A stretch of DNA of 64,000 nucleotides from a virus. A program made the translations under genes and the position numbers. The first letter of the stretch is position 1; every line of letters starts with the position of its first letter. This document shows, piece after piece, positions 24,433 through 58,460 of this stretch. The notes beneath the pieces are model-generated. The model made no database searches. It saw only the letters and a list, made by a program, of their open reading frames with translations, and had not been told where the DNA came from. The stretch covers positions 23,413 through 87,412 of the IMG/VR virus record IMGVR_UViG_3300028840_005080. The stretch is one strand, 5' to 3'.

Positions 24433-25038
24433 TTATTTTCTAAGAAATGACGGATTGTTTTTGATATTTTCACGATATTTCAAAGGAATTCTGATTTTCC
24501 CTTGTTTCGGCGAGCGTAAATATCCGTTTTTTATAAAGAATTCGAATAATTTTCTTGTGATTCGGATGTCGTGCAAACAATATTCAATTGTTTCAATAAA
24601 ATTCGATGTGTTGAAATTTATACTGATTTTTTGTTTATTGAGGGTCATTTTGCATAAATCATTTAAATTTAATCCGCCTGGAGATTTTTTTTTAACAGAT
24701 TCAGATAACTTTATACCATAAAATGATGATAAGACAATTAAAAATATATCATATTCAAGCCAATATGTTTCACGTGAAACAATTTTGAAATACGGGAAAT
24801 TCAAGCGATATTTTCTATTGTTTCCAAGTAAAAGCCGAGTGTCAAAATTAATTCCGTTAAATGAAGCACATATGTTTCCATTCAATGCTCTTATAAGCTC
24901 TGAAGAATTGTCAAATATAAAATAGGTATCGCGATTATAACTGTAAATGCATCCGCACAAAAACCCCATCGTATTTTGGGGATCTTTAAACGTCCCTTTG
25001 TTCCTTGTCTCGCAGTCATATATTAAAATGTCTTGCAA
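24433..25038 (-). CDS. DEDD-type 3'-5' exonuclease
   Basis: The RNase H-like exonuclease motifs are in order: Exo I IYDCET, Exo II NGINFDTRLL and Exo III CLHDIRITRKL. It could supply proofreading in trans to the polymerase, or act in repair. The frame is open back to 25206, but that part overlaps the upstream tail gene; a TTG at 25038 (LQDILIYDCE) is the more likely start, giving about 201 residues. The first parS-like palindrome (24766-24781) is inside, encoding VSRET. Confidence 0.75.
   Translation of the reverse strand: MQDILIYDCETRNKGTFKDPQNTMGFLCGCIYSYNRDTYFIFDNSSELIRALNGNICASFNGINFDTRLLLGNNRKYRLNFPYFKIVSRETYWLEYDIFLIVLSSFYGIKLSESVKKKSPGGLNLNDLCKMTLNKQKISINFNTSNFIETIEYCLHDIRITRKLFEFFIKNGYLRSPKQGKIRIPLKYRENIKNNPSFLRK
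24766..24781. promoter_or_regulatory. parS-like palindrome, copy 1
   Basis: TGTTTCACGTGAAACA, a perfect 16-bp palindrome identical to the canonical bacterial ParB-binding parS site. It lies within the exonuclease gene. Three more exact copies occur in the window. Confidence 0.8.
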
Positions 25039-25051
25039 TTTATATTCTTTC

Positions 25052-26176
25052 TTAAGTTTCCCATGGTTCGCCCCAGTCAATTGCGGCATTATTAAAATTC
25101 GGGATTCCTGCCCAATCAAGATTAAGAATTGTATTTGATGTATATCCGTTATCGCAAGAACCCGAATACGTATAATCATCAAAATCATAAAAAGTATCAT
25201 AAACATATTCTGATGTAAATGAGTAAACGCTAAAGATCATCCCTAATTTTTCCGGACAATTATAATTATTTGTCCAATTGATTCTTAATTGCGATGGTCT
25301 GTTTTCGTTTAGCCATTGTGTATGCTCAATCACGCTTTCGCCAGTCCAATTTTGATTGCAATAATTGCCAAAAGTCGGATATGTCAGATATCTTTGATTT
25401 GATGTTTCCCATTTTGCATAAAAACTCCCTCCGTCATTCCAATAATCTGGAGTGAATCTTGAAACCCATCCGGAATCCGTATTAAATTCTATATTGTTAA
25501 TATAGAAACTTGCTCCATCACGAATTGGACAGCAGATAACCGTTGGTTGTCCTGGTATGAGATAATACATATATAACTGAATATATGTTGCCCAATATAA
25601 ACAATCAACAGGCTCATCCCAAAAACCTACGACAACCGGTCTTTCATAACTCCCATATTCATAAAAAACAACTACTATGTCATCTGCTTCAAATGCTGCC
25701 GTATCGCATTGCATATATTGTGCTTTGCATGATCTTGTAGAATCCCCGTATATTTCTACTTCCATATATTCGGCATCTGTGATCGAAGCAACTTTACCTT
25801 TTTTGTATAACGGATATTCTTTTTGCCAACGCCTGTTTCTTTCAGATGACAGGATGTACCCCTTGACAAGCTGATGTTTGTTGTTTGTTTCCCATAATTC
25901 TTTTGGTTTTTTCCACACAGAATTTGTTGAATATGTGTAAACAGGGATATTTTCTTCTTCCTGGCCCGTATGTGTATTCGGTAGGAATCTTAGATTCCCG
26001 TGTCCTTTGTTGACAACAGGCGGTTCGTTGTCAATATCTGCGATTCTTACTTCGGTGCCCAAAAGAATTTCATCTTTTGTGACGCATTGTGCCGAAGTTT
26101 CGCCGATATCAGGAACATTTACGATATAATTATTATTTTCCGCATCATCAATATTTGTTATTACACCGCGACTCAC
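25052..26176 (-). CDS. Distal tail / baseplate-type protein with OB-like domains
   Basis: A 374-residue protein starting at GTG 26176 (overlaps the upstream TGA). Two related segments, GVITNIDDAENNNYIVNVPD and GKVASITDAEYMEVEIYGD, each followed by a VVVxG strand, resemble tandem OB-like folds used by tail-tip proteins. The remainder is Tyr/Trp/Asn-rich. Position at the end of the tail module suggests a tail tip or host-binding component. Exact role is inference. Confidence 0.55.
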   Translation of the reverse strand: MSRGVITNIDDAENNNYIVNVPDIGETSAQCVTKDEILLGTEVRIADIDNEPPVVNKGHGNLRFLPNTHTGQEEENIPVYTYSTNSVWKKPKELWETNNKHQLVKGYILSSERNRRWQKEYPLYKKGKVASITDAEYMEVEIYGDSTRSCKAQYMQCDTAAFEADDIVVVFYEYGSYERPVVVGFWDEPVDCLYWATYIQLYMYYLIPGQPTVICCPIRDGASFYINNIEFNTDSGWVSRFTPDYWNDGGSFYAKWETSNQRYLTYPTFGNYCNQNWTGESVIEHTQWLNENRPSQLRINWTNNYNCPEKLGMIFSVYSFTSEYVYDTFYDFDDYTYSGSCDNGYTSNTILNLDWAGIPNFNNAAIDWGEPWET

Positions 26177-27462
26177 GACTCTTTTCCGATATATGCGCTA
26201 AATGTTGTTGTCGGCATGGATCCATATTGATAGGAATGTTGATATTCATATATTGGACATCCTGTTGCTGCCAAAGTCGCTTCGGTTGAGTTTATTGTGA
26301 CAAACTTCCTTATTCCTATATCAGAATTTAAAATTGTTGTTATTTTAAAATTTTTTTCCATTTCTTGCGCATCTGAAATAATATTTGAAGCCAACCGCGC
26401 TGCCTCTGTTAAATTTTTTATAAGCCCGGATGATATTGTCAAATTGTTTATTCCATGCTTATTTGTATAATCACCAACTGCTTCCTGATATGTACTTGCA
26501 TTTTCGTCTACACCTATTACCTCACATCTTGTTGTTATTCCAAGTACATCATCTGTTTCGAAGCTTATTATTTGTGAATCATTATACGAAAGCGATGTTA
26601 GAAAATCAGAAGGTCTGTTTCCCACAAAATAATTTGTAACTCCTCCTGAATAATCCATGTAATGCCATAATTGCGTTCCAACAATTTTGACTATATCGTT
26701 TACTGCGGCAAGAGCTGTTTTATACGCAAAATCTTGTTCTGTCCAATCATAAAGTGAGTTTGTGTTTACGTAATAACTACCGCTTATTATGTCTCTTCCT
26801 CCAAATATTTTTGCAAGATAATAATTTAGAATTCCATCTGCGTTTCCGGAATATTTTGATCCTGTGGCATCTTCGTATGATTCAAAATACACGGTATTCA
26901 TCTCTGTTGCAATAGATGTTCCTGATAACGTTATATAATTATTCCCTCCGAAAGAATATGTTTCCGGTTTTCTGTTCGCAAACCCTTCAAACAATAATTC
27001 ATAAGAAATTCCATTGTTTGATGAATAATAAATTTGCAATCTTTTATATCTGTGTGGTCCGAGTATTCCATAATCATCCAAATGTCCGGAAACCCACACT
27101 CTTGAATTATATAACTCAGCCTTGTCAATTGTTACGCTAAAACTACCTATGACATTACTTTTGGAATTAGAAATATTAAAAGCGTATGCTGTAGAAAGAT
27201 ATTGCCATTGATAAACGCCCACATCCGGGTCATAATCTCTCCACATTACATATGCTTTTGGCTTTATTATATCGCTTGGAGTAGGTATTATTCCCGGATC
27301 AACCACAACTTCGCCTGGGATTATTCCCGGAATAGGCAACGCAACAAGATTTATGCTATATGGCAAATCTACGGAACCATAATGATACGATCTTGAAATT
27401 TCAAAATTGAGCGTGATCGGGAATTGATGACCTTGGCCACCAAATAGGAGCGTCAGAGACAT
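26173..27462 (-). CDS. Tail tip / central hub-type protein
   Basis: A 429-residue protein of mainly beta composition. Features include a proline-rich linker (VDPGIIPTPSDIIKPK) and segments SIATEMNTVYFES and FVTINSTEATLAATGCPIYEYQHSY typical of phage hub or gp44-like proteins. It follows four small tail genes after the tape measure, where distal-tail and hub genes sit in siphoviruses. GGAG precedes the start. Exact family not confirmed. Confidence 0.55.
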   Translation of the reverse strand: MSLTLLFGGQGHQFPITLNFEISRSYHYGSVDLPYSINLVALPIPGIIPGEVVVDPGIIPTPSDIIKPKAYVMWRDYDPDVGVYQWQYLSTAYAFNISNSKSNVIGSFSVTIDKAELYNSRVWVSGHLDDYGILGPHRYKRLQIYYSSNNGISYELLFEGFANRKPETYSFGGNNYITLSGTSIATEMNTVYFESYEDATGSKYSGNADGILNYYLAKIFGGRDIISGSYYVNTNSLYDWTEQDFAYKTALAAVNDIVKIVGTQLWHYMDYSGGVTNYFVGNRPSDFLTSLSYNDSQIISFETDDVLGITTRCEVIGVDENASTYQEAVGDYTNKHGINNLTISSGLIKNLTEAARLASNIISDAQEMEKNFKITTILNSDIGIRKFVTINSTEATLAATGCPIYEYQHSYQYGSMPTTTFSAYIGKES

Positions 27463-27465
27463 TTA

Positions 27466-28068
27466 TTACTCTCCGCCACCAGCTTGGTATGCTTCCCATG
27501 ATCCGCTACCGGATGGTGTCGAATCGGATATCCATTCATCTATCGCACCCGTTGTTGCGGCATACCAGATATCCGCGCTTGTAACTCCGCCTGTAAGTGT
27601 GACATGCACCCCTATTTTGGCTCCGCCTTTGACAGACCACGTTTGCACCATACACAGTGTGTAATTTCCTGTTGTATACAATGCGCTTGCTGCTCCCGGA
27701 GGTGCGAATCCGGAAAATACTTTTGGTTCAAGAAACCCTAATGCATCATCTCCGCTATCTATCACTATTGGCGTTACTATGACATTGCCGACTGTCGATC
27801 CGGTACAATAATATTGAACAATGCATGTAAAAGTTGTGGCTTCTCCGATTGTTATCGCATTACTTAATATACCTGATGGAATTGTGCTAAACTGAAGATC
27901 ATCATCGGATGACACAGTTCTATTGACCGTATCAAAATCAAGGCCATGATATTTACAAGTCGCATCAAAATACTGGACATCACGGGCATTCGTGTCCGCA
28001 TCGTCAACATTGGCATCGCGTGTGGCTATTCTACTTCCATCTGCTATTGTTGAACTTCTTTCAGCCAT
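27466..28068 (-). CDS. Tail-region structural protein (200 residues)
   Basis: A small-residue-rich protein (Ala, Gly, Thr, Ser) with repeated short beta segments and a final GSGSWEAYQAGGGE. Similar proteins occur among minor tail or decoration proteins of uncultured phages. AGGAG precedes ATG 28068. No catalytic motif. The assignment is by position and composition. Confidence 0.55.
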   Translation of the reverse strand: MAERSSTIADGSRIATRDANVDDADTNARDVQYFDATCKYHGLDFDTVNRTVSSDDDLQFSTIPSGILSNAITIGEATTFTCIVQYYCTGSTVGNVIVTPIVIDSGDDALGFLEPKVFSGFAPPGAASALYTTGNYTLCMVQTWSVKGGAKIGVHVTLTGGVTSADIWYAATTGAIDEWISDSTPSGSGSWEAYQAGGGE

Positions 28069-28079
28069 TTACTTTTCTC

Positions 28080-28520
28080 CTAAGTTGAATCCGGCGTTTC
28101 GAATTTTGCAACTATGCTCTCAAAAACTGCCGAATCTCCATCTAAAATTGTTTGATCACTATCATACGTTATTGCTGACATAATAGGATCGTTTGTGACT
28201 GTATCGTTGTAAATAATTACGACTCTGTAAGGCCCTATGTTACCGCCCGATGCTGTTATTGTCACATTATTAAACGTTCTTTTGGCGAGATTATTTGCGT
28301 CATCAACAGCAACGGAACCACCGGACATCGTCTCTCCTCCGGCTGTGTATCCGTTTCCTGTTGAAAGTTCATTTCCTGAAACGTCAGAATATTCAATATC
28401 ATTATCAACATCAAAAGTGAAATTGCTACATAATATTAATTTGAATGTATCATTATCCCAATCTATTTCTTTTGTGGCCAATAACAGAGCCGCGTTTTGT
28501 GGGATTTGAACCGTAGCCAT
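28080..28520 (-). CDS. Tail-region structural protein (146 residues)
   Basis: A beta-rich protein. The opening LLLATKEIDWDNDTFKLIL and later TGNGYTAGGETMSGG are very typical of a widespread phage structural family of unknown function seen near tail genes. AGGGAG precedes the start. Likely virion component; the exact place is unknown. Confidence 0.6.
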   Translation of the reverse strand: MATVQIPQNAALLLATKEIDWDNDTFKLILCSNFTFDVDNDIEYSDVSGNELSTGNGYTAGGETMSGGSVAVDDANNLAKRTFNNVTITASGGNIGPYRVVIIYNDTVTNDPIMSAITYDSDQTILDGDSAVFESIVAKFETPDST

Positions 28521-28771
28521 TATATTCTCCCTATTTCAAATCCGTTTATATCAAATTTTTTGTATCCCAAAAATGTTTCACGTGAAACATTCGTTTTTTC
28601 ATAATTGAATTTGTTAAAAAATAATTCAATAGTAATATTTTTATAATTATCTTCATTATATGTCTGAATTCCGAATAAGCATTTCATAGAATTATTGAAG
28701 TAAAAATTTAGAAAATTTAGTATCAATCCTTCTTTATCGTTTTTATAAAAAATCAGATTAAAATCAAACAT
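28520..28771 (-). CDS. Small tail-region protein containing a parS-like site
   Basis: An 83-residue Phe- and Asn-rich protein with no recognised family. GGAG precedes ATG 28771. It overlaps the next gene by one base. The second parS-like palindrome (28574-28589) is coded here, again as VSRET, which suggests that the palindrome is accommodated in coding sequence. Confidence 0.6.
   Translation of the reverse strand: MFDFNLIFYKNDKEGLILNFLNFYFNNSMKCLFGIQTYNEDNYKNITIELFFNKFNYEKTNVSRETFLGYKKFDINGFEIGRI
28574..28589. promoter_or_regulatory. parS-like palindrome, copy 2
   Basis: Exact copy of TGTTTCACGTGAAACA, inside the 83-residue gene, 3808 bases from copy 1. Confidence 0.8.
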
Positions 28772-29160
28772 TATGCAGTCTCCATATCAATTGAATCGCC
28801 TGTTACAAGCATTTGAATAGCCGTATATGTTTTTCCGTATTCATTCCCGCTTTTTTGTACATCTGTAATATAAACAGGCCATGTTTTGTCAACATAATTG
28901 AAAAAATATTCCAAATACGTGTTGTCTTCTTTCATTTCCGCAAGCAAATTGTAATCATCTTGTGATAACCTTATATTCGATACTTCTATTTTTGTTCCTT
29001 TGTTGTTATAATCCCATACAGCCCAAACAATATCGCCGTTAAGATATGTGACTTCTGCTATTTTTTTTTGACCTATTCTTTTAAAAGTTGGCTCATCAAT
29101 ATCAAAATTTATTGAATTTCCGGCTGTTCTGTAATATTTGCTATTTATCGAGGCTTTCAT
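28771..29160 (-). CDS. Tail protein downstream of the tape measure (129 residues)
   Basis: A beta-rich protein (AEVTYLNGDIVWAVWDYNN, then DKTWPVYITDVQKSG). Its position right after the tape measure suggests a distal tail or tape-measure-associated protein; similar small proteins are common there. AAGGAT precedes ATG 29160. Family not recognised. Confidence 0.55.
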   Translation of the reverse strand: MKASINSKYYRTAGNSINFDIDEPTFKRIGQKKIAEVTYLNGDIVWAVWDYNNKGTKIEVSNIRLSQDDYNLLAEMKEDNTYLEYFFNYVDKTWPVYITDVQKSGNEYGKTYTAIQMLVTGDSIDMETA

Positions 29161-29162
29161 TT

Positions 29163-32100
29163 TTATCCTTCTTGCCCGAATACATTGAATTGTTCCGCTT
29201 CGGCTTCAACGAAAATTTGATCAATTAATGATTTTGTCAACCCTCTTAGCCATTCCTCCCCGTTTGAATTAACTTCGACATTAAAAACAAATCTTTCCGG
29301 GAATCCGAATTGCCTTATTGCATCTGTTAATTTTTCCTGACTTTCTAAAAGATAACTATTTGATTCTATCAATGATTGGAGGGCATCGCGTGTCGCAGCC
29401 CCTCCTATTTCCGTATCAAAACCCGCAGCCTGTCCAAGCCCTCCTGTTGTTAAAAGCCTACCGATGCCTTCTTCTATCGCAGATGACAAACCCTCTGTTG
29501 TTTCTCCATCTTCTTCGGGAATAATAGGCTGTATCGGCGATACTGATAATTCTCCAAATGTATCTTGCATTGAAGGAAAATCCTCAATGCTTTTAATTAT
29601 TGTTCCTATCCCGCTCGTAACATTGCTAAAATCAGCTTCTATTTTTGGTTTCAATCCGCTTGTTTTATCTGCGAATCCGATTACTTTTCCCTGTATTTCC
29701 GCTATTTTTTCAGAAAGCGGGAGTTTGCTTGAGCCTGTCCCTGTAAAATCAATGTTGTATTGACTTGTTTGTTTTACCAAATCGGAGAGTCTCATAAACG
29801 AAGATGTCATTCCGCCTATTTGATTATTTATGCTTGAGAATGAACTTCCTATTTGATTTCCTATGTTCACAATATCTTTTGATCTGTCAGCTATTCCGCT
29901 AAAAGCCGAATCTATTTGATTACCGAGTCCGCCTATCACATCTGTTGTATTTTTTATTTGATCTTCTACGAGACTTTGTTGTGAAATAAGAGAATCGTTT
30001 TGATTTTGAAGTACGCTTACAGCCGCATCGCTTGCTTTTTGCATAAGATCGATTGAGAGCGTTGTATTTTGTTCAAGTGATTTTACTACTTCACCTGATT
30101 CGTCTTTTATTTCTGTCTGTAATTCTCCGGCAAGATCGGCTGCTTTTTCATACAATTCTGCTGCTGCTTCAAAATTTCCTTTTGCACTTTCTTGCTGAGC
30201 TTGGGCATAAACTTCGTCGTATTCAAGTCGAATATCTTGGAATTGCTCAAGTTCAGTCATTGTTTCGCGTCTGGCTTCTCTTATTTTTTCTTCAGTAGTT
30301 TGCTGAATATCGACGATTTTCCCATTAATTTTATCAATTTCGTCAGCCAAACTTTGCCATTCGGATTTCAGATCATCAAGAATATCCGTAGCCTGATCGT
30401 AAATTTCTTCATATGCGCCTATTACTCCGTCAGCCATTTTTTCAGCGGCTTCTATGTTTCCAGAACCAAACGCTTCGTTTACTTGTTTAATTCCTTCCTG
30501 TAGTTTCGAAGCACTATCAACTATGTCGTTAAAAGAATCGGCTGCTTGCGTTGCCGATTCATCTACGGATGATGTGAAATTTCCATAATCTTCTGTTAGG
30601 ATTGATATTTCACCTGACAAACCAGTAAGCGTATCTTTGAAGTTTGTCCACCCTTCGATTCTTGCTTCAACATCCGCTGCGGCTTCTTCAAGCGTCTGAT
30701 CAAGTACATCGACCTTAAGCCCGAAATTAGCGGCTTCAACAGTTATTGATTGAAATTGCTGTTGAAGTGCTTTTATTGCTTCCATGTCATTTTTTGCCGC
30801 ACTCGCTATTGATCTTTGACTATATGATCCGGCAAATTCTGCTACGTTGATTCTTGCATTATCAAGCAAAAGATTCAGATCATTAAGGCTCTGTGTTGCC
30901 GGATCAATGTCTACAAAAAAAGCTACCGGGATCTGCCATGCTTGCCTCATGTTTGTTGCTCGATCAAAAAGCATTTCAAGTTTTTCGCCAGCTACTTGAA
31001 AATCACTTGTTGTTTGTCTTGATAATTCGCTTGAGGCTGAGGCTGCTTCCTTTTCGGCGCTTGTTACTTCGTCTGTTTTTTCTTTTACCGCCTGCTTTAC
31101 TTCTATTAATTCGAGTTCGGCTTGTTTTTTTGCGAGTACGGCATTTGCATATTCTTCGCTATCCTGCCCATATTGTGATGCGGCAAGTTGTATACTTTCG
31201 CTTAATTTTTGTATTTTAAAATTAAGAAAATCTTCTTCTATTGCACGTTTTTGATTTGTCGCATTTTCAACACTGATAACTCCGCGCGCTTCTTGTTTTT
31301 CTATTTCGACAGTTGCGATTTCGTAGTTTGCTTGTCTTATTGAAATTTCTTCTTCCAGACTACTTTTTAATGCTTCTCTTTCTTCTTCTATTTTTTGTAT
31401 TTTAAATTCTGTAAACTCTCTTTGTACGTCTTTTACTGCCTGATATGCCTCTTTTTGTCTTTCAACATCTTCCGGATAATTTTCTTTTATGATATCATAG
31501 GCTTCTTGCGTTTTGCTTATTTTATCATTTAAATATGTTTCCTGAGCTTCAAGACGTTTTTGCAGAGACTCTTCTTCGTCAATTCTTCCTTCAGCCTCAA
31601 GAAGATTTATATCTGCTATATTTTGTTCATATAATATTTTTTCTTTTTCTAATGAGTTTTCTATATCTGTTAGCCTTGTTTCAAGATTTTTCTTTCTGTC
31701 TTCTTCTGCTTGTTGCTTTAGTCTTGTTACTTCGGCCTCGGCATTTTTTATTACTTCGATTATTTTGGCATTTTCGTCTTTTTCTGCCTGTGTTTTTTCA
31801 CCGGTTTTTGATTTAAAATTTTCTATATCTTCGGAATAAAATTCTTTTAATGTATCAACTCTTGCTTGTGCTGCTTCTATCGAACTTGAATTATATTCTT
31901 CCTGGGCTTCGGCTTTTCTTTGATTTGCTTCTTCCGCGCTTATAACTCCGCTTTTTTCGAGTTCGTTTATTTCGTCTGTTGCTCCTTTATATGTTTCTTT
32001 TCTTAATTCAAGAGATTTTTTTTGCTCTTTGTTAATCGTTTCAAGAGTTCTTTTATTTGATTCTACTATTTTTTCCCCGACTTTTTCTACTATCCTTGCT

Positions 32101-33929
32101 TCTTCTTCAAGTATAAGGCGGGAGATTTCACCGTATTCTTCAAAATCCGCTATTGCCTGATCCGAATCGACTTTTATTTCGGCAGGTGGAAGATTGCTTA
32201 TAACACTATCTGCTTTTTCCGCAACTTGTTCTATGGCATGTATGTTTTCAACGGACGCCTTTAAAACATTATCAACCCATAAATCAATCGGCTCTCTGTT
32301 TGCGATTTCTGCATTGCCTTCTGCCGCTTTTTTCCCGTATTCTTGTATTCTTTGTGTAGTTGCCGCTATTTCTTCTTGCAGATCAACAAAAGGAAGTGTG
32401 TTAAGCCCTTCTTGCAGATCGAGGATATATTTGTTCGCATCTCTTAAAAATTCGTTAAAAATAACCTGAAGCTCTGTAACTCCAAGTGTTGCTGCGGTAT
32501 ACCAACCCGTAAACGCATCATGAACTGTTGCAACTATAAGAGCAATTGAAGTCAGCGACGTATTTATTATTTTTAGTATTCCTTCGAGTCTTTCACCTCC
32601 CGAAGTCGAATCAACAAAGCCTTTTACAAATTCGGCTCCCAAATTTATCATTATTTGGATATTTTGGCTCAGAATTGTTGATATGTCTGAAAGAAATTTG
32701 TAAACGTTTTGTATATTTCCTTGAAACGCTTGGTCAAATACTTCCTGTGCTGCTTGTCTTAATGCGTTAAATGCTTCTACAAGAGGACCGCCTATCCCTC
32801 TGCCTGATTTTTCAAGTTCAAGCAATTGGCTTATAACACCTCTTATTCCGGAGTTTTCATCTTTTCCAACAAATTCTATCAAAACAGGAAGTAACTCTTC
32901 ACCTATCGTTTTTTTAAATACGTCAAGTGTTCCGCCGAGATTATTAAGGACTATGCTCCACTTTTCTGATTTCTGTCTTGCTGCGTCTGTTGAGGAATTT
33001 GTTCCTGTTATTGTTGTTGTTAACTCTTTAATTGCTTGTGATTCGTTGTTTATAATTCCTGCGAATTGTGATGCTTCAACGCCAAATAACGCAACAGCAT
33101 CTGTTGCCGATATTGTTTGCCCTTTGAATGCATTTAATATTTCAATTGAGTTTTTTGTTGCCGGATTTACATCTTTATAAGTAAGGCCGTAATTTGCAAG
33201 TGCTGTTGTTCCTTTTTCTGTTTCTTTTGTCAGTGCAACAAGAGCACCTCTGAAAACAGTTCCTGTTTGAGACGCATCGAGACCTTGTTTCCTTAATAAA
33301 GCCAAAGTCGCGACAGTTTCTTCCAAACCCATATTAAACAAATTTGCTGTTGGCCCTGCGAATTTTAACGCTTCTCTTAAATCAGATACGCTGGCAGCAG
33401 AATTAAATTGTGTTGCGGCGAGTACATTTGAGACTCTTGATACTTCCGTTACTTCAAGACCGAATTGGCTAAGAGTAGAAGTTAAAGCTGATACGCTTGT
33501 ATTTAATTCTGTACCTGTAGCTATTTGTAATTCAATTGCCGCATCGGTAATATTTTCTAACTGATCCGCTGCTCCGAAACCGAATTGGGCAATTGACTCA
33601 AGCGCTTGTCCGGCTTGTGCGCCAGTTACCGGAAATTTTGCAACAAGACGATCAAGAATGTTTCCGATTTCTTCTGTTGATGCTCCCGCCTTGCCAACTA
33701 CCGCACTGACATCAAAAATAGCATCGTTGAAATCCGCTGCGGCTTGAACAGCGCTTTGGCCGATACCTATTGTAAAATTTGCAAGCACCAATGAAAATCC
33801 GGCTATTGCTGCCTGTGCTTCTACCGCTGCTGTCCCGATTCCACCCAAAAGCCCGCCAAATTTTTCAAGCGTTGAACTATAATCGTCGACTGCGCTTATT
33901 ATTATTTTTACTTCTCGATCAATCGCCAT
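29163..33929 (-). CDS. Tail tape measure protein
   Basis: A 1588-residue protein. The N-terminal third has the TP901-type tape measure pattern (alternating Ala/Gly-rich helices such as AAADFNDAIFDVSAVVGK and VSNVLAATQFNSAASVSDL). The central part (about 600-1000) is long charged coiled coil, with repeats of I(S)xEEA..RK. The C-terminal part holds hydrophobic helices and ends with a small beta region. By the usual rule of about 0.15 nm per residue the tail would be near 240 nm. AGGAA precedes the ATG; promoter box B lies upstream. Confidence 0.9.
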   Translation of the reverse strand: MAIDREVKIIISAVDDYSSTLEKFGGLLGGIGTAAVEAQAAIAGFSLVLANFTIGIGQSAVQAAADFNDAIFDVSAVVGKAGASTEEIGNILDRLVAKFPVTGAQAGQALESIAQFGFGAADQLENITDAAIELQIATGTELNTSVSALTSTLSQFGLEVTEVSRVSNVLAATQFNSAASVSDLREALKFAGPTANLFNMGLEETVATLALLRKQGLDASQTGTVFRGALVALTKETEKGTTALANYGLTYKDVNPATKNSIEILNAFKGQTISATDAVALFGVEASQFAGIINNESQAIKELTTTITGTNSSTDAARQKSEKWSIVLNNLGGTLDVFKKTIGEELLPVLIEFVGKDENSGIRGVISQLLELEKSGRGIGGPLVEAFNALRQAAQEVFDQAFQGNIQNVYKFLSDISTILSQNIQIMINLGAEFVKGFVDSTSGGERLEGILKIINTSLTSIALIVATVHDAFTGWYTAATLGVTELQVIFNEFLRDANKYILDLQEGLNTLPFVDLQEEIAATTQRIQEYGKKAAEGNAEIANREPIDLWVDNVLKASVENIHAIEQVAEKADSVISNLPPAEIKVDSDQAIADFEEYGEISRLILEEEARIVEKVGEKIVESNKRTLETINKEQKKSLELRKETYKGATDEINELEKSGVISAEEANQRKAEAQEEYNSSSIEAAQARVDTLKEFYSEDIENFKSKTGEKTQAEKDENAKIIEVIKNAEAEVTRLKQQAEEDRKKNLETRLTDIENSLEKEKILYEQNIADINLLEAEGRIDEEESLQKRLEAQETYLNDKISKTQEAYDIIKENYPEDVERQKEAYQAVKDVQREFTEFKIQKIEEEREALKSSLEEEISIRQANYEIATVEIEKQEARGVISVENATNQKRAIEEDFLNFKIQKLSESIQLAASQYGQDSEEYANAVLAKKQAELELIEVKQAVKEKTDEVTSAEKEAASASSELSRQTTSDFQVAGEKLEMLFDRATNMRQAWQIPVAFFVDIDPATQSLNDLNLLLDNARINVAEFAGSYSQRSIASAAKNDMEAIKALQQQFQSITVEAANFGLKVDVLDQTLEEAAADVEARIEGWTNFKDTLTGLSGEISILTEDYGNFTSSVDESATQAADSFNDIVDSASKLQEGIKQVNEAFGSGNIEAAEKMADGVIGAYEEIYDQATDILDDLKSEWQSLADEIDKINGKIVDIQQTTEEKIREARRETMTELEQFQDIRLEYDEVYAQAQQESAKGNFEAAAELYEKAADLAGELQTEIKDESGEVVKSLEQNTTLSIDLMQKASDAAVSVLQNQNDSLISQQSLVEDQIKNTTDVIGGLGNQIDSAFSGIADRSKDIVNIGNQIGSSFSSINNQIGGMTSSFMRLSDLVKQTSQYNIDFTGTGSSKLPLSEKIAEIQGKVIGFADKTSGLKPKIEADFSNVTSGIGTIIKSIEDFPSMQDTFGELSVSPIQPIIPEEDGETTEGLSSAIEEGIGRLLTTGGLGQAAGFDTEIGGAATRDALQSLIESNSYLLESQEKLTDAIRQFGFPERFVFNVEVNSNGEEWLRGLTKSLIDQIFVEAEAEQFNVFGQEG

Positions 33930-43808: not shown

Positions 43809-43836
43809 TTTTTCTCTTTCGTATTATTATTTATAA

Positions 43837-43865
43837 AAAATATATTAAAATAAAAAATTTGTCAA
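43837..43865 (-). promoter_or_regulatory. Probable sigma70-type promoter for the methyltransferase-TS cassette
   Basis: Minus-strand TTGACA (43860-43865) with TATTTT at 17-base spacing (43837-43842), or TATATT at 15. It lies just past the terminator at 43873-43911. Confidence 0.55.
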
Positions 43866-43872
43866 TATAGAT

Positions 43873-43911
43873 ATAAAAAAAAGAGATGTCTAAAAACATC
43901 TCTTTTTTTTT
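43873..43911 (-). terminator. Rho-independent terminator (bidirectional form)
   Basis: AGAGATGT (43882-43889) pairs with ACATCTCT (43896-43903), flanked by A-runs on one side and T-runs on the other. It ends the radical SAM gene on the minus strand. Confidence 0.85.
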
Positions 43912-43915
43912 GAAT

Positions 43916-44647: not shown

Positions 44648-44680
44648 TTCCCTCTCCTTTGTTAATTGTTTTCTAAATAT

Positions 44681-44709
44681 AGAATAATAATATTTTTCTT
44701 ATTTGTCAA
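44681..44709 (-). promoter_or_regulatory. Sigma70-type promoter for the radical SAM gene
   Basis: Minus-strand TTGACA (44704-44709), 17-base spacer, TATTCT (44681-44686), 34 bases before the ATG. Confidence 0.75.
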
Positions 44710-44712
44710 GGG

Positions 44713-45267
44713 TTATTTGAAACAGAATCGGAATGTTCCATATATTTTTTTTTGTTCGGGTTGATAATATTTTATTTTTTTGACTTGCGTTAATGATAGA
44801 TATTGGAAAAACCTATCATTATTATAAAATAAAGTAGGGCATTCGTTTATCATTTCATTGGAAAAACCAATTTTATTTAGCATATTTTTCGGAAGGGCGC
44901 CATATAATGACCTAATAGCTGTGAAAAACACAATTCCAGTATACTTTTTATTGTATAATATTTCACATTGTTTGAACGGGATGCCATAAGAATCGAGATC
45001 TATTATATCAAATATGTTTAAATTTTCCATGCCAAGTAAATATTTTATATTATCACCGATTATTTTTGCATGTTTGTTATCTTTTTTATCTATGCCGATT
45101 ACATTTATATTTTTATTTTTATTTATTTTTATTATTTCTTTCCACAAAAAACCATTGCCATAAAAACAATCCAATACACAAATATTTTTTTTATTTGGTA
45201 AAAAATCGTTTCTTAATCTTTTTTTGATATCGAAATTTGAATTATCTGTTTTTTTAATTTGAGCCAT
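44713..45267 (-). CDS. Methyltransferase-like protein
   Basis: A 184-residue class I methyltransferase-fold protein: ICVLDCFYGNGFLWKEI (motif I) and NVIGIDKKD (motif II), then FDIIDLDSYGIP as the catalytic-region motif. It overlaps the ParB-like gene upstream, a pairing common in phage DNA-modification modules. The target (DNA, RNA or protein) cannot be told. Ends at 44713 ahead of the radical SAM promoter. Confidence 0.6.
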   Translation of the reverse strand: MAQIKKTDNSNFDIKKRLRNDFLPNKKNICVLDCFYGNGFLWKEIIKINKNKNINVIGIDKKDNKHAKIIGDNIKYLLGMENLNIFDIIDLDSYGIPFKQCEILYNKKYTGIVFFTAIRSLYGALPKNMLNKIGFSNEMINECPTLFYNNDRFFQYLSLTQVKKIKYYQPEQKKIYGTFRFCFK

Positions 45268-45781
45268 AAGTTATCTCAATATCTTGCTTCGTTTCTGCAT
45301 AAGTTATTATGTCCGACATATCTTCTATTTTATCAACTGGTAACGATATCAATAAATGCAATTTTTTATATGGAATAAGATCTTTTTCTTTTATTGCGTT
45401 GTTATTTTCTTCGTTTTTATTGTTAAAACCAATAATGTTGATATTGTTTAATTCTGATATAAGATAATTTAATTCGTTTTCATCTGCTTCAGATAAAAAT
45501 GGCAAAGAGTTATCCGCTATCAATAATTCTATCGCTTCTTCTTTGTTTAGATGTGACACATCATTGACGAATAATGTTTTATAATCCTTTCTTTTTGCTG
45601 CTTCAACCAAACCGTTTCCGGCTATTACCTGATTATCCTTCCAAATTACAATATTTTTATATTGCAAGAATTTTTCTAACGATTTTTCAAGCTCTCTTAT
45701 TTGATTTTCCGGATGTTTGTTGTAATTAGAAAAATCATAAGGTTCCTTTAGTTCTGATATATCAATTTCTTTAAGTTTCAT
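45254..45781 (-). CDS. ParB/sulfiredoxin-domain protein
   Basis: A 175-residue protein with the ParB-N fold: NKHPENQIRELEKSLEKF, IVIWKDNQVIAGNGLVEAAKR and LNKEEAIELLIADN. It lacks the helix-turn-helix and C-terminal dimer domains of partition ParB and the GERR CTP motif, so it is unlikely to bind the parS sites itself. Phage ParB-N proteins often sit by methyltransferases, as here. Function unresolved. Confidence 0.7.
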   Translation of the reverse strand: MKLKEIDISELKEPYDFSNYNKHPENQIRELEKSLEKFLQYKNIVIWKDNQVIAGNGLVEAAKRKDYKTLFVNDVSHLNKEEAIELLIADNSLPFLSEADENELNYLISELNNINIIGFNNKNEENNNAIKEKDLIPYKKLHLLISLPVDKIEDMSDIITYAETKQDIEITYGSN

Positions 45782-45783
45782 TT

Positions 45784-46731
45784 CTAATCCAAATAAATAT
45801 TTTGTAGTTTTTTACCATCAAAAAAATCCAGTATCATCCGTAATCGTTCTTTTGTTGAGTGATATTTTTGGCAAAACTCAAATCCTTTTTCGCGTATGCA
45901 TTTTTTATCATTGAATTGATTGAATTTTCTAATAAAAACATCAACATTGCCAAGCTCATAAGGAACATAATGAATATAGTCCCGAAAAAAACTTTGTATA
46001 TTTTTATGATTTTCATGAAAATAAATAGCTCCGGCACCTATGTATTGAAACGGACGGACGTCCAAATAAAGATCGATATCGCTCCCCATTTGTGTTCCAA
46101 GAATTCCTTTTGCGGATGATGAAACTACAGGAGTAATGAACATAGAATTCCCGTATTTTTTATCAGGATATGTTTTTATTTGAATTCTTTTTGACAATTG
46201 TTTTAAAAATTCTTTTCTTTGTTTGTGGTGTTCCCCGAAGTCAAGACTGCCTGTAAACACAATATCGGCTTTGAAACGATCTTGTTTATCGGCTATATCT
46301 TTTTGATACATACATCCATAAGGCCAGTGAATTGCAGGTATTTTCCATAATTCAGAAAAACCCTTGTGTTCGGCGTGATTCACAAGTCCCAAATCGCATA
46401 TGTCAGAAATATTATGTGGAAATCTTGGTTTTTTTCTGGCATCTCCGCAATGATATACTATTTTTGTTCCCCATTTTTTTCTTGTATCTCTTAGGATTTG
46501 AAATAAATCATCTCTGTTCCATGGCTTTTTATCAAAAATACAATGGCAAAGAAGAATATCAGGCTTATAAAAATCAATTTGGTTTTTTAGATAAGTCAGA
46601 TCGGATTGTGGTAACAAGGGAATTGGAAACGCCGAACATCCGCATCTTATAGCTCCTTCAAGCACGCCTATATTAAAATAACTCGGATATGTTGTGTATT
46701 TACCAAGTATTGCTATCCTAATTTGTTTCAT
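45784..46731 (-). CDS. Glycosyltransferase (GT-B, CgeB-like)
   Basis: A 315-residue protein with a GT-B-type layout: an N-terminal Rossmann-like part (IAILGKYTTYPSYFNIGVLEGA, then PDILLCHCIF) and a C-terminal part with ADIVFTGSLDFG, MGSDIDLYLDVRPFQYIGAGA and KGFEFCQKYH, typical of CgeB-like transferases. Sugar and acceptor are unknown. Part of the glycosylation island. Confidence 0.65.
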   Translation of the reverse strand: MKQIRIAILGKYTTYPSYFNIGVLEGAIRCGCSAFPIPLLPQSDLTYLKNQIDFYKPDILLCHCIFDKKPWNRDDLFQILRDTRKKWGTKIVYHCGDARKKPRFPHNISDICDLGLVNHAEHKGFSELWKIPAIHWPYGCMYQKDIADKQDRFKADIVFTGSLDFGEHHKQRKEFLKQLSKRIQIKTYPDKKYGNSMFITPVVSSSAKGILGTQMGSDIDLYLDVRPFQYIGAGAIYFHENHKNIQSFFRDYIHYVPYELGNVDVFIRKFNQFNDKKCIREKGFEFCQKYHSTKERLRMILDFFDGKKLQNIYLD

Positions 46732-46871
46732 TCTTTTCTTTCAAATTTTTCACATGAATCACGCCAGATTTTTATATCCCAAGTATAAAAACATCTTCTT
46801 ACAGCATATCCATTATCAGAATATTTTATCCAATGTTTGCAATAAACGCATATTTTTGTCGGATTTTTCAT
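46728..46871 (-). CDS. Small cysteine-rich protein (47 residues)
   Basis: ATG 46871; the stop overlaps the next ATG (ATGA). Contains KICVYCKHWIKYSDNGYAVR, then a third Cys and a fourth in DSCEKFE, a C-x2-C-x(n)-C-x(n)-C zinc-like arrangement similar to the 52-residue ORF at 16.2 kb. Function unknown. Confidence 0.55.
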   Translation of the reverse strand: MKNPTKICVYCKHWIKYSDNGYAVRRCFYTWDIKIWRDSCEKFERKE

Positions 46872-46873
46872 AT

Positions 46874-47434
46874 TTATTCATTTTTAATATCCAATTCAAA
46901 ACAAAACCCAAGCCCGTATGATGGCAGTACTATAAACTCTTCTTTATTGACTTCTTTTATATAATCTTCGTTGCCTGTTTTAAATCTTACAAAATATTTT
47001 TTATTTATTAAATTAATATGATCATGAAAATCAAATATATTAAGAAATTCATTTGGGGGATAATGCCATGGATTTGGATGGTAATTTCCATTTGGCGTTG
47101 CGACAAAAATATATTTGTTGGATATAAAACAAATATCATCAATCCATCTGTTTAAAATATCAATAGTCACATGCTCAATAACATCGAAAGCCGTAACAAG
47201 ATCGTAACTATGATTAACAGATGCTGGCCAACATACATAATCAATGGTATTCATTAAGGCTCTGTTGATATCCTGCGTTTTTACATTTTCTGTTATTATT
47301 TTTAATCGTTCTTTTGCTTTTCCCCAACCCGAACCAACATCAAGAACAGAATTTATATTTTTATTTTTGAAATATTTACCTACAAACTCATGCCAAACTT
47401 TTTGCAGATCTTTTGGTGGTGTTTTTGTATACAT
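46874..47434 (-). CDS. SAM-dependent methyltransferase
   Basis: A 186-residue class I methyltransferase with SVLDVGSGWGKAK (motif I), VTAFDVIEHV (motif IV) and FVATPNGNYHPNPWH. This form (DVIEHV, TPNG) is common in sugar or small-molecule methylases of glycosylation clusters. AAGAAG precedes the start. Confidence 0.7.
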   Translation of the reverse strand: MYTKTPPKDLQKVWHEFVGKYFKNKNINSVLDVGSGWGKAKERLKIITENVKTQDINRALMNTIDYVCWPASVNHSYDLVTAFDVIEHVTIDILNRWIDDICFISNKYIFVATPNGNYHPNPWHYPPNEFLNIFDFHDHINLINKKYFVRFKTGNEDYIKEVNKEEFIVLPSYGLGFCFELDIKNE

Positions 47435-53235: not shown

Positions 53236-54341
53236 TTAAAATCACACATTCCTTGAATAAAATGTGTTATATCAGGATCGTAATTTTTTATCCTTATACT
53301 TCCATCGATATGTGTGAACAACCACAAAGTCGGAACATTCAAAGCACTCGCCATATGCATAGGGCCTGTATCCGGACCAATGACAAGATCACATATATTT
53401 AACAAACTTGCTACCTGTCTTAATGATTTATTGAACCACGGATTTGATTTTCCGACTTTGTAATTTTTTGGTTTTGATTTTGCCACATCATACCCAATAA
53501 TGTTTTTATCTTCCAGTAATCTGTTTCTTAACTCATAAATTTTATCCCAAGATCTTACCGGAGCATTTGATTCAAGGATAAATGCAATTTTTTTAAATTC
53601 CCAGATATTGATCATTGAAAAATCATTCAATTCTTTTTCTGACAAATACAATTTTGGTCTTGGTGTTTCTTTTGGATTAAACCCGACTGAATCCATAAAT
53701 ACTTCTGAACGATTCATAGATACGTTTGGTTGATGTTTCATTTCATATTTGATACAATCCCGAGTCAGATCAATCACAACATCCCAATTTTTTTTTGTAA
53801 CATTGTCAGAATATGGAACAAGCGTATCTATATAGGGATTATTTTCAGCAAGACACAGAAATTCAGTAGGGCATGAATAAGTGATTTTGTAATTCGGATT
53901 TTTCTTTTTCGCATATTCAATAACCGGGAAAGTCATAATCACATCACCAAGCCCTCCGAGTTTTCTGAATATAAGCGTATTTACAGTCGTATCGAAATTT
54001 TGATAATCAGAAAGTTTTTGCTCTGAATAATTTACAATTCGATAAATTCTTGTTCCGTCGCCTCTTTCTGCTTGTTTTATTACAAAAGGAATTTTTTCGA
54101 GTTTTCTGGTAACAAATCTGTCCGAACAAAATATCAATCCGTTTTCAAATCGTAGATAATCCGCGATGCCAAGGAACAATTTATAATCAAAATGACAAAC
54201 ACAATCAAACACATCCGGATGTTTTGTAAGCCAATGATAAAGATTTATGTTATCGATTTGTTCCCACTCTGGTGTGATTTGATACGTTTGCTTTGAAAAT
54301 CTTACTCTTTTTGTTCCGGATTTTCTATATCTTGCCTTCAC
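53232..54341 (-). CDS. Heptosyltransferase-like glycosyltransferase (GT9)
   Basis: A 369-residue GT9 protein: IFRKLGGLGDVIMTFPVIEY and VIGPDTGPMHMASALNVPTLWLF, both hallmark motifs of LPS heptosyltransferases. The start is GTG 54341, overlapping the upstream TGA. Phage copies may remodel host LPS or join the glycan built by the neighbours. An N-terminal 110-residue extension is present. Confidence 0.75.
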   Translation of the reverse strand: MKARYRKSGTKRVRFSKQTYQITPEWEQIDNINLYHWLTKHPDVFDCVCHFDYKLFLGIADYLRFENGLIFCSDRFVTRKLEKIPFVIKQAERGDGTRIYRIVNYSEQKLSDYQNFDTTVNTLIFRKLGGLGDVIMTFPVIEYAKKKNPNYKITYSCPTEFLCLAENNPYIDTLVPYSDNVTKKNWDVVIDLTRDCIKYEMKHQPNVSMNRSEVFMDSVGFNPKETPRPKLYLSEKELNDFSMINIWEFKKIAFILESNAPVRSWDKIYELRNRLLEDKNIIGYDVAKSKPKNYKVGKSNPWFNKSLRQVASLLNICDLVIGPDTGPMHMASALNVPTLWLFTHIDGSIRIKNYDPDITHFIQGMCDFK

Positions 54342-54670
54342 TTCTCAGATGCTTTCTTTCTTCCGGGTTTTTTCTTTGTAATATATTTTGAAAGGATATC
54401 AGAAATTTCATTTTCGGTCAAATTTGTTTTTTCAATAAGTGATGTAATGTTGTCTTCAAACGCTTCTTTCGGCGATAATTGATATTGTTCATATTCGAAA
54501 AATTTTCCGTATTCTCTTTTCAATAATCTGAATGCGTTTGGCGAGATATTTTTTCCGGAAACAAAAACGCAATTTGGTGTGCATGCAATTTTTCTATATT
54601 CACTTAATGCGCTTAGCCCCTTGATTATAAAAACTTTTTCTTCTTTCCCTATATAAGTCAGTTTTTCCAT
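54338..54670 (-). CDS. Hypothetical protein (110 residues)
   Basis: A mixed alpha/beta protein (IIKGLSALSEYRKIACTPNCV) with a basic tail (KKKPGRKKASEK). Immediately downstream of the capsid gene and the third parS-like site. Not recognised; it may be a small head-region protein. Confidence 0.55.
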   Translation of the reverse strand: MEKLTYIGKEEKVFIIKGLSALSEYRKIACTPNCVFVSGKNISPNAFRLLKREYGKFFEYEQYQLSPKEAFEDNITSLIEKTNLTENEISDILSKYITKKKPGRKKASEK

Positions 54671-54687: not shown

Positions 54688-54703
54688 TGTTTCACGTGAA
54701 ACA
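54688..54703. promoter_or_regulatory. parS-like palindrome, copy 3
   Basis: Exact TGTTTCACGTGAAACA in the gap between the capsid stop and the next start, so it is not constrained by coding. Confidence 0.85.
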
Positions 54704-54750: not shown

Positions 54751-55752
54751 TTAGGCGTTCGGAGCCTCAGAAGATGTTACAATTTGTTTAATTGCTTTTG
54801 CACAAAGAACTTTGTCCTGATAAGCAATTTCAATCCCAACACCATGTTCAAATCCATAATCCCGAGTTTGTTCGTTCCAAGTCAGAACTTTGTTTTCTCC
54901 GTGTGCAATTGCTTCGGCTCCGATCATAACAGCACGAGAATAATAAACAGCCGGAGAATTGGCGTTTTGAGTTCTTCCGCAATTTGTAGATTCGTAAATT
55001 ACGGCACCGTCCAATTCACCCAAAGCGCCGGTAAAAATCGGATTCATTTTGCCACGTTCCGAACAATCACGATGATTTGTGATCCATTCCGTATCTTGTT
55101 TCAAGCTATAAGCCTGATAAGGATGAATCATACAAACAAAATATTCTTCGCCAGGCAATCCGGGAATAGAGATACCATGAATATTGTCGCCACGCATAAG
55201 AGCAACTGTTTTTCGGACTGTTTCTGCTGTGAATTCATCAGAACTGTCAATTGTATCAACAGAAGTAGCATCGCCTCCGTAAACAATCCCAATCGCTTCG
55301 GATTCCCAACCTACCGCCGCTGTCTGTTGCGCCGCTGTCCATTTGTCTTTGTCCTGCTTTTCGGCAATCCAACGGGCGAGCAAAGTCATAGCCATCTGTC
55401 TGAAGTCATTATTAATTTGCTTTTTCGCTTTTCCCGTCGAAGCAACCCCGTGCCTGATCCATTCCGGAACAACAGATACCTGCTGAGTAGTGATTTGTTC
55501 CTCGTTCCCAACAAGTGTACTTTCGCCTGTAACCCCCGTTCCCGTAAGATCGACAAGCCTGTTAACACGAATGGTATCGCCTGGTTCTGTAAGCAATTCT
55601 GTTTTGCGGATAATAGGCATTCCACTTCCTTCGTTACCCACAAATCGCTGCCACCATTGAAGCGCCTGAGCCTTCATAAACAGCTTCCGCGCCCAAATTT
55701 CAGGAATAAGATTCGCGAATTCCGTTGTCGTTGTCAGATTCATAAAAGCCAT
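54751..55752 (-). CDS. Major capsid protein (N4 gp56 family)
   Basis: A 333-residue protein. The start TTEFANLIPEIWARKLFMKA, the middle VGNEEQITTQQVSVVPEWIRHG and the end DYGFEHGVGIEIAYQDKVL fit the N4-gp56 family of HK97-fold major capsid proteins. GGGAGGT precedes ATG 55752. It follows the scaffold-like gene in a head operon led by promoter box D. Confidence 0.85.
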   Translation of the reverse strand: MAFMNLTTTTEFANLIPEIWARKLFMKAQALQWWQRFVGNEGSGMPIIRKTELLTEPGDTIRVNRLVDLTGTGVTGESTLVGNEEQITTQQVSVVPEWIRHGVASTGKAKKQINNDFRQMAMTLLARWIAEKQDKDKWTAAQQTAAVGWESEAIGIVYGGDATSVDTIDSSDEFTAETVRKTVALMRGDNIHGISIPGLPGEEYFVCMIHPYQAYSLKQDTEWITNHRDCSERGKMNPIFTGALGELDGAVIYESTNCGRTQNANSPAVYYSRAVMIGAEAIAHGENKVLTWNEQTRDYGFEHGVGIEIAYQDKVLCAKAIKQIVTSSEAPNA

Positions 55753-56752: not shown

Positions 56753-56786
56753 ATAAAAAACCCGCTTCATTAATTTGAAGCGGGTT
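56753..56786 (-). terminator. Rho-independent terminator
   Basis: AACCCGCTTCA pairs with TGAAGCGGGTT (11 bp, 6-base loop), followed on the minus strand by TTTTTTATTT. It ends the single-gene unit 56813-57220. Confidence 0.85.
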
Positions 56787-56812
56787 AATGGATTTAAGTT
56801 TGTATTGTTATT

Positions 56813-57220: not shown

Positions 57221-57268
57221 GTTTCAATCTCCTTTAAGTTTTGTTGTTTTTCCCCATGTTCTAAATAT

Positions 57269-57297
57269 ATAATAATATCAAAAAAAGGATTTGTCAA
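57269..57297 (-). promoter_or_regulatory. Sigma70-type promoter for the acidic protein gene
   Basis: Minus-strand TTGACA (57292-57297), 17-base spacer, TATTAT (57269-57274). One of the clearest promoters in the window. Confidence 0.8.
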
Positions 57298-57353
57298 GAG
57301 AAAAGTTTATTATTTTTTATATTTTTCAAACAGATGTGCAGTGGTGTATGGAG

Positions 57354-58424
57354 TTATATTGATTCAGGATTTGGGATTTCGTATTCATCAACAGGATTTG
57401 ATTCAAGCAATCCGATCATCTCTTCCATGTTTTTATACAGTAATTTTCCGGCCGCTCTTGTTGGATCATTCGGGATTATTCTTTTCTTTTCCCCGTTGAT
57501 ATTCGCAAACCATGATGATTTCTGATACGAATCCGGATCTGATTTCAATATATCAATTAATTTTATTCTTCTCTCTTCTATTGTCTGATTGATCCCTGTG
57601 TTTATATCGCTCCATTCGCATCTTGTATAAACCAAATCACATCGGCAAATATATCTCGGAGGAGGCCCATAAGTATCAAGCATTTGCTTTTCAGGGATAA
57701 CACCTGCAATTGATGCTTCAAGGCATATCGGTTTTGTTCTTCTGTCTATTGGATTACCGTTCCAACAACATTTCAAATTTTGTTTCTTCGCATCTTCCAT
57801 TACAAACGCAGTTCTTTGCGATACGGCATTTATGATCATTTCGGCTTCTGTCGATTGTCCGAATGAACTACCTATTCGAATCGATCCAAACTGAGTCAAC
57901 AATTGCTCAATTATTTTATCAATTGTTTGTTGTTGCGTTATCCCTCTAAGAAAAACACCATAAGCAAAATCATGCCATTTTTTTATTGTCTGATTTATTC
58001 TTTGAAATGACGCTTTGTTCAAATTTGACAACCTGGCATTCAAATCTTTTGTGATTATCGTTTTGTTTTCTAATCCGAAAAGATTGTTCCTGCTTTTTAT
58101 AAAATTTTTCTCTTGCTTTAGAACATCTCTGACAGTTGAATTAGAAACTTTTGAATATTTTTTTTTGTACGGATTAAACACCTTCTCTTCGGTTTTATTT
58201 AAAAATATGTTTATTTTCGCGATATTTGAATTTTTATTTGCAAGCCTGTTGTCTTTGTCTTTTTCCAAGTCTGACAAAAATTTCATATATTCTGTTGATG
58301 CTTTTTTATCTATTATATTGTTTAATCGATTTATGTCAGCTTGCGAGTCAGAAAGAATTTTATTTGAATCTTTTCTTGATCTTATTGCAAGCGAGTAAAA
58401 TTTTTTGCCGTTTGTGATGGTCAT
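57354..58424 (-). CDS. Minor head protein (SPP1 gp7 / Mu F-like)
   Basis: A 356-residue protein. Residues about 160-290 hold the phage-Mu F domain (YGVFLRGITQQQTIDKIIEQL, then EMIINAVSQRTAFVMED, and a Cys/Pro-rich CWNGNPIDRRTKPICL/GPPPRYICRCDLV). This protein usually associates with the portal in the procapsid. Its start follows copy 4 of the parS-like site. Confidence 0.8.
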   Translation of the reverse strand: MTITNGKKFYSLAIRSRKDSNKILSDSQADINRLNNIIDKKASTEYMKFLSDLEKDKDNRLANKNSNIAKINIFLNKTEEKVFNPYKKKYSKVSNSTVRDVLKQEKNFIKSRNNLFGLENKTIITKDLNARLSNLNKASFQRINQTIKKWHDFAYGVFLRGITQQQTIDKIIEQLLTQFGSIRIGSSFGQSTEAEMIINAVSQRTAFVMEDAKKQNLKCCWNGNPIDRRTKPICLEASIAGVIPEKQMLDTYGPPPRYICRCDLVYTRCEWSDINTGINQTIEERRIKLIDILKSDPDSYQKSSWFANINGEKKRIIPNDPTRAAGKLLYKNMEEMIGLLESNPVDEYEIPNPESI

Positions 58425-58444
58425 AATTGAAATGTATCCAAAAA

Positions 58445-58460
58445 TGTTTCACGTGAAACA
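58445..58460. promoter_or_regulatory. parS-like palindrome, copy 4
   Basis: Exact TGTTTCACGTGAAACA in the short gap between the endolysin stop (58461) and the minor head start (58424). Confidence 0.85.

Follow-up and report, generated by a model that had tools for sequence, protein, structure and literature searches.

Why would a bacteriophage carry four exact copies of parS, the site at which ParB acts in bacterial chromosomal ParABS systems? The question is raised by a 64.0-kb stretch of viral DNA (bases 23413-87412 of the 87,412-base, or 87.4-kb, IMG/VR record IMGVR_UViG_3300028840_005080), called the window below, in which the 16-base palindrome TGTTTCACGTGAAACA (the T/A form of parS) occurs four times. 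We put at about 0.85 the probability that these palindromes are sites for the host's ParB kept under selection. This assessment is drawn from sequence comparison, and we make it because the phage has no recognised par genes, parS is enriched across phages relative to control palindromes, viral parS sites in general avoid open reading frames (ORFs) and share a symmetric extension, their variants partly match those of the hosts, and phage phi29 provides a precedent.

All four copies reported in the preliminary description are present with no mismatch and, as it also stated, two are coded as VSRET and two are intergenic:

24766..24781, no strand assigned: parS site 1, exact TGTTTCACGTGAAACA, coded as VSRET in the minus-strand ORF 24433-25206.
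28574..28589, no strand assigned: parS site 2, exact, within the 20-nt extended palindrome AATGTTTCACGTGAAACATT, coded as VSRET near the 3' end of the minus-strand ORF 28520-28771.
54688..54703, no strand assigned: parS site 3, exact, intergenic, between a terminator-like hairpin past the major capsid gene and ORF 54338-54670.
58445..58460, no strand assigned: parS site 4, exact, within the 20-nt extended palindrome, in a 36-bp gap with the stop codon of 58461-58997 directly before it and gene 57354-58424 after it.
54737-54714, minus strand: terminator-like hairpin, ending 10 nt before site 3.

The spacings of 3808 bases between sites 1 and 2 and 3757 bases between sites 3 and 4 are likewise as first described. 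The near symmetry of the four sites about 41.6 kb, to which attention had been drawn as well, has little meaning, as it follows from two similarly spaced pairs in a window that covers only 64.0 of 87.4 kb. The base composition (33.5% G+C) predicts 3.2e-5 chance copies of the 16-mer per genome, in agreement with the initial estimate of far less than one. Across the whole record there is no further copy with up to two mismatches, and the next-best match in a scan of the joined genome has three; the five matches with up to three mismatches in the window were reached by none of 100 dinucleotide shuffles of it. Among perfect palindromes of 12, 14, 16, 18, and 20 nt, parS is the sole one occurring more than twice. 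Two stretches of a second IMG/VR contig from the same virus (24.8 and 19.2 kb), which between them hold all four sites, have 100% identity to the record, and an assembly error is therefore unlikely.

Outside the four full sites, the half-site GTTTCAC is absent from the genome, against about 6-9 occurrences expected. It is one of nine absent seven-mers among the 4405 with an expectation of at least 5, a modest signal that is suggestive of selection against stray ParB binding. Short flanking sequences are alike at sites 1 and 3 (alignment score 11) and at sites 2 and 4 (score 10; per-comparison P 0.0001 and 0.0005, in 24 comparisons), a modest likeness that is explained in part by the T-rich flank of viral parS sites generally.

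The proteins that would act on these sites appear not to be encoded by the phage. Neither HTH_ParB nor ParA (AAA_31) has a match at E ≤ 0.001 anywhere in the record, the part beyond the window included, and the record has no tyrosine integrase match either; because these three are missing, we infer that the phage is virulent. ParM, TubZ, serine integrases, and repressors are not named among the 60 proteins of the genome scanned against PHROGs, a scan that did not take in every ORF, and no family-level search was made for any of them. The window does hold one ParB-like gene:

45254..45781, minus strand: ParB-N-like protein (phrog_498/620), with no recognised helix-turn-helix (HTH) and no Pfam hit at 0.01.

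Its lack of DNA-binding parts had been pointed out in the preliminary description. The gene sits in a cluster (42591-47434) with methyltransferase-, radical-SAM-, and glycosyltransferase-like genes, and, with no more than the N-terminal type domain and with this modification-gene neighbourhood, it was rejected as the phage's own partition ParB. Judging from domain content and neighbours, the product probably has a role in DNA modification rather than partition. ParB-CTPase folds of phages are often fused to methyltransferase-type domains, according to a published survey (PMC12704722).

The enrichment of parS extends well beyond this genome. Among 50,697 phage records, exact TGTTTCACGTGAAACA occurs in 286 (824 places with both strands counted, about 412 sites), whereas two control palindromes of the same base composition, reversed parS and a variant with one symmetric pair swapped, occur in none. 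The 286 records include RefSeq duplicates, none of which was removed from the counts, and the unannotated Listeria LM 4-11-1/4-14-1 fragments, which are possibly chromosomal. In the 2.9 million contigs of IMG/VR, which may include misfiled host DNA, exact parS is found in at least 120 stretches and each control in one. The 20-mer AATGTTTCACGTGAAACATT is found there in at least 119 stretches, yet just 16 of the parS stretches listed (the first 120) contain it; should the listed ones be typical, we estimate that the IMG/VR parS stretches number roughly 900 or more.

A symmetric AA/TT extension of parS is common to 142 distinct IMG/VR contexts, in which T makes up 57% of the first flanking position and 50% of the second and falls near background by the fourth. 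This pattern is a symmetric protein-site signature amid unrelated surroundings. The IMG/VR sites also avoid genes, as 63 of 146 lie inside ORFs of at least 100 amino acids, whereas of 2920 positions drawn at random from that DNA 2359 do. HTH_ParB was found above the curated cut-off in none of 50 parS-bearing records (11 whole phage records, phi29 and B103 among them, and 39 contigs from the 120 IMG/VR stretches, many of these contigs being fragments), Butyrivibrio phage Arian having one weak match below the cut-off.

Several other occurrences of the site were seen in these collections. In Microbacterium phages, exact parS lies inside a gene annotated as DNA-binding or helix-turn-helix in eight of the 12 rows listed, and microvirus-type records (~4-7 kb), including Spiroplasma phage 4, hold exact parS forms. 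Two IMG/VR loci (L022 and L049) each have five exact sites clustered within about 0.8-0.9 kb and a third (L015) has three tight pairs of exact and one-mismatch sites; all three may represent phages, or plasmids, that carry a centromere-like cluster.

The form of parS partly follows the host. According to Table 1 of PMC7022226, Pseudomonas parS is TGTTCCACGTGGAACA (the C/G form), the Bacillus subtilis consensus is TGTTNCACGTGAAACA, and TGTTTCACGTGAAACA is given for Hyphomonas neptunium and fits the consensus of B. subtilis, Corynebacterium, and Vibrio chromosome I. Phage records with the T/A form are led by Listeria (87), Microbacterium (49), Arthrobacter (29), and Gordonia (25); Bacillus has 11, Pseudomonas is outside the top ten, and no enterobacterial phage is among the 120 rows listed. 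The C/G form occurs in 58 phage records, the largest group being Pseudomonas with 17, and a mixed form, TGTTTCACGTGGAACA, in 147 (Pseudomonas 36, Arthrobacter 28, Bacillus 24). Both forms seen in Bacillus records (11 T/A and 24 mixed) fit the B. subtilis consensus. Related phages enter these tallies repeatedly, and the rows inspected were 120 for the 286 T/A-form records (60 best and 60 spread, with some records in both sets), 60 of the 147 mixed-form records, and all 58 of the C/G form. We take the parS variants to follow the host's parS type in part, and imperfectly. Several Pseudomonas syringae phages, phiPsa374 and its relatives, have mixed-form parS in a feature annotated as DTR (direct terminal repeat).

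Conservation of individual sites can be followed in one pair of phages. Two sites compared between DSS3P8 and MAL1 match at 16 of 16 positions within alignments that are otherwise 75.9% and 70.4% identical. Of the three DSS3P8 sites, one has no exact counterpart in MAL1, which has two; sites are therefore also lost or gained.

Because the record's first 144 bases (L005 1-144) are repeated at its end (window 63857-64000), the genome is probably complete, at about 87.27 kb; a further copy of 121 bp of this repeat, 95.9% identical, lies at L005 2123-2243. The window's long ORFs are mostly on the minus strand. Sites 2-4 lie among head and tail genes and site 1 beside them, among genes without clear assignment:

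58461..58997, minus strand: phrog_3108 family protein, some relatives of which are annotated as endolysin or lytic murein transglycosylase; the gene of its homologue in L070 ends in an exact parS.
57354..58424, minus strand: possible minor head protein, matching Pfam Phage_Mu_F weakly (20.7 bits, cut-off 29.6).
54751..55752, minus strand: major capsid protein (phrog_334).
29163..33929, minus strand: tape measure protein, ~0.6 kb upstream of site 2 in transcription order.
28520..28771, minus strand: ORF coding site 2, 83 amino acids, no PHROGs match.
24433..25206, minus strand: ORF coding site 1, overlapping ORF 25052-26176, an overlap that could mean a true start further inside; it matches phrog_17 weakly (E 8.4e-5).

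Elsewhere in the genome are replication and recombination genes for a DNA polymerase III-like enzyme, clamp, clamp loader, helicase, primase, and UvsX- and SbcCD-like proteins, as well as genes for endonuclease VII, thymidylate synthase, large terminase, and portal. Two proteins encoded at 5279-5818 and 10678-11505 of the window (phrog_7713/923 families) have in common a short imperfect repeat, with matches in many registers.

Capsid and portal matches in the phage records are distant, at 25-29% identity, and window positions 24000-32000 have no DNA match to phages. A distant homologue of the site-4 neighbour gene 58461-58997 (44% identity), on a contig that was picked up through its own parS (L070/L155), has an exact parS at its end, in the position that site 4 occupies here. 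Another locus (L060), with two sites 3805 bp apart, was considered as a relative of the pair formed by sites 1 and 2; it has no gene in common with the window in the stretch compared, and the spacing was put down to coincidence. Neither the site-4 neighbour gene, with matches in Gamma- and Alphaproteobacteria, Bacteroidota, and others, nor the DNA polymerase, with matches spread over many hosts, allowed a host to be called.

What host ParB would do on the phage genome is a more tentative matter. The role that we prefer, at somewhat less than even odds and by comparison with known systems, is the positioning or retention of phage DNA where lysis is delayed. Loading is expected if the host has a canonical ParB: on infection, chromosomal ParB bound to cytidine triphosphate (CTP) would bind each parS, close into a clamp, and slide into the neighbouring genes, which mostly belong to the head and tail region; the phage genome would thereby be marked like the host origin region. 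Together with ParA and/or SMC, ParB could then keep or segregate the phage DNA alongside that region, and the benefit would be that phage DNA is kept in cells whose lysis is slow, deferred, or arrested, as with phi29 and Spo0J in sporulating cells. Binding and sliding on the phage sites would follow from known ParB biochemistry, that is, CTP-dependent loading at parS, closure, sliding, and contacts with SMC and ParA (PMC7022226; PMC12704722). Phage lambda with an introduced parS replicates and lyses in cells making CFP-ParB (PMC13190303), and ParB loading is therefore compatible with lysis. The retention function is proposed by analogy only.

A number of observations weigh against this reading. 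Our argument assumes canonical ParB specificity, from which that of the host may differ. The benefit to phi29 is tied to sporulation, and most hosts of the listed parS phages are non-sporulating. More than 99% of phage records are without the exact T/A form. Pseudomonas records with the mixed form (36) outnumber those with the C/G form listed for Pseudomonas (17), and each of 10 Klebsiella records, of which eight are 345-358 kb genomes, has a single C/G-form site (labelled baseplate wedge in three), although Klebsiella is not known to possess a chromosomal ParABS. Half of the window sites (two of four) and three of phi29's four fall within genes, and the differing site numbers of DSS3P8 and MAL1 count here too. 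Searching IMG/VR with the capsid and tape-measure proteins gave no diverged relative, only the 100% identical contig. The parS that follows the phrog_3108 family gene in L070 is not a general arrangement, since only one of 80 IMG/VR loci with this gene has an exact parS, and its contig had already come up through that parS; one of the other 79 has a single-mismatch site 9.8 kb away, and none of 80 bacterial-genome loci has parS with up to one mismatch, many loci in both sets being short.

Other explanations start from the same four sites. It is possible, if unlikely, that ParB on the phage sites recruits host SMC, which would compact or disentangle replicating DNA and aid replication or packaging, not inheritance. 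Sites 2-4 do lie among head and tail genes, and inheritance is not an obvious need because phi29-type phages, DSS3P8, and P100 are taken as lytic; moreover, ParB-parS loads SMC in several bacteria (PMC7022226; PMC10197239). The growth of lambda with introduced parS tells against this role insofar as it makes ParB on phage DNA at least no block (PMC13190303). Titration, in which replicated phage genomes with four sites each would draw ParB off the host origin and upset segregation and replication control, seems less likely again. If 100 genomes per cell are assumed, phage sites would number 400, whereas no species in PMC7022226 Table 1 has more than 22 host sites, and the phage has no recognised par genes of its own. 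The gain is unclear, however, as par genes are non-essential in most species listed there, and for many of the listed parS phages there is just one exact site. Segregation as a phage-plasmid, condensation through SMC, and titration, the three uses of host ParB put forward in the preliminary description, are not separable with the present data. Its broader proposal, that the phage draws on host ParB, is well supported as far as selected sites are concerned, while the lack of any HTH_ParB or AAA_31 match gives no indication of a classic phage-plasmid that encodes partition genes itself.

Improbable, in our estimation, is a role in gene timing, with ParB clamps spreading from the sites to silence or delay nearby promoters. 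Such a role would suit the location of sites 2-4 among head and tail genes and of site 1 in the unassigned genes adjoining them, and a weak promoter-like match (9/12) overlaps site 3, but the single stretch scanned for promoters holds 16 such matches where chance predicts 18.4, and two sites are inside ORFs. There is very little likelihood that the palindromes are transcription terminators or the binding site of another protein, merely resembling parS. The palindrome does form a hairpin of 6-9 pairs in three of four predicted RNA folds, and a T run follows sites 2 and 4 on the minus strand. Against this, RNA folding is near or modestly beyond that of shuffles (z -0.6 to -2.2), and in a terminator scan of sites 3 and 4 neither was called, a separate terminator-like hairpin ending 10 nt before site 3; a terminator role was rejected as weak on these two grounds. 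The counts for palindromes of the same composition, zero in phage records and one each in IMG/VR, speak against this reading as well. We give next to no credence to chance or a recent duplication without function. The little flank shared by sites 1 and 3 and by sites 2 and 4 could be read in its favour, but it is short and comes partly from the T-rich flank of viral parS, no decayed copies with one or two mismatches are present, and the expectation is 3.2e-5 copies.

Beyond this genome, we lean towards the view that borrowing the host's chromosomal ParB through parS is a general viral strategy that evolved many times in unrelated phages, including those of non-sporulating hosts. The phages concerned would be virulent tailed phages, inoviruses, and microviruses, the present phage among them, and they would enlist the CTP-dependent clamp, SMC, and ParA without coding any partition gene. 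The surprising element is the breadth of parS in phages and its frequent suitability for the host, the kind of interaction itself being known from phi29, which in our reading has so far been treated as a special case tied to sporulation. We found no general report of host parS in phages in the open-licence literature, a scope within which subscription papers mostly do not fall. If the view is right, ParB capture would be a common and overlooked device of host takeover or persistence in many lineages, non-sporulating hosts included, and the parS type could serve as a cheap cue for predicting the hosts of viral contigs.

The closest known parallel, and to our knowledge the only precedent to have been studied, is phi29 (Salasmaviridae), which has four TGTTTCACGTGGAACA sites, of the mixed B. 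subtilis form; one, at 17243, comes right after gene 16 and the other three lie in genes. Spo0J-dependent entrapment of phi29 in spores was reportedly described by Meijer et al. in 2005. The related phage B103 has two sites, at least one of them at a matching place. Host Spo0J drives entrapment of the phi29 genome in the spore (PMC9437464). The two phages are alike in having no HTH_ParB and four dispersed parS-type sites, one of which directly follows a stop codon, as site 4 does here. They differ in that phi29 is a 19-kb phage of a spore-forming host, with mixed-form sites of which three are inside genes, whereas the present phage has 87 kb, its own DNA polymerase III-like replisome, and fully symmetric sites. 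Spo0A, DnaA, and CtrA boxes were considered as a further phi29 parallel and gave nothing convincing: TGTCGAA occurs 20 times against 13.0 expected (standard deviation 3.7), DnaA-type boxes twice against 3.9, and CtrA-type boxes eight times against 23.6.

Among other phages, whole records hold three exact sites in Lpa804 and Bromius and two in LpeD (Lactobacillus), four in Bacillus phage vB_BcoS-136, three each in DSS3P8, V10, and Butyrivibrio phage Arian, and two in MAL1; Listeria phage P100, Gordonia phage Woes, and Vibrio phage phi 3 were also inspected. The inovirus bajarodino 6 (PQ006149.1, L214; 5.9 kb) has six, at 635, 662, 1414, 2857, 4096, and 5628, five between annotated genes and one just inside a coding sequence. 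In Vibrio phage phi 3 (L225; Demerecviridae), mixed-form and exact parS lie at 821 and 2934 in the left terminal repeat, beside genes A1 and A2. The inspected phages thus range from one to six exact sites, most of them intergenic where their position was inspected, and are very different from the present phage in genome size, taxonomy, and the number and place of sites. P1-type phage-plasmids encode ParA and ParB for their own parS. The present phage resembles them in having a centromere-like site on its genome and differs in that no ParA or ParB of its own was found. With the chromosomal ParABS systems of bacteria it shares an identical site (TGTTTCACGTGAAACA); the phage has the sites only, and the proteins must be the host's.

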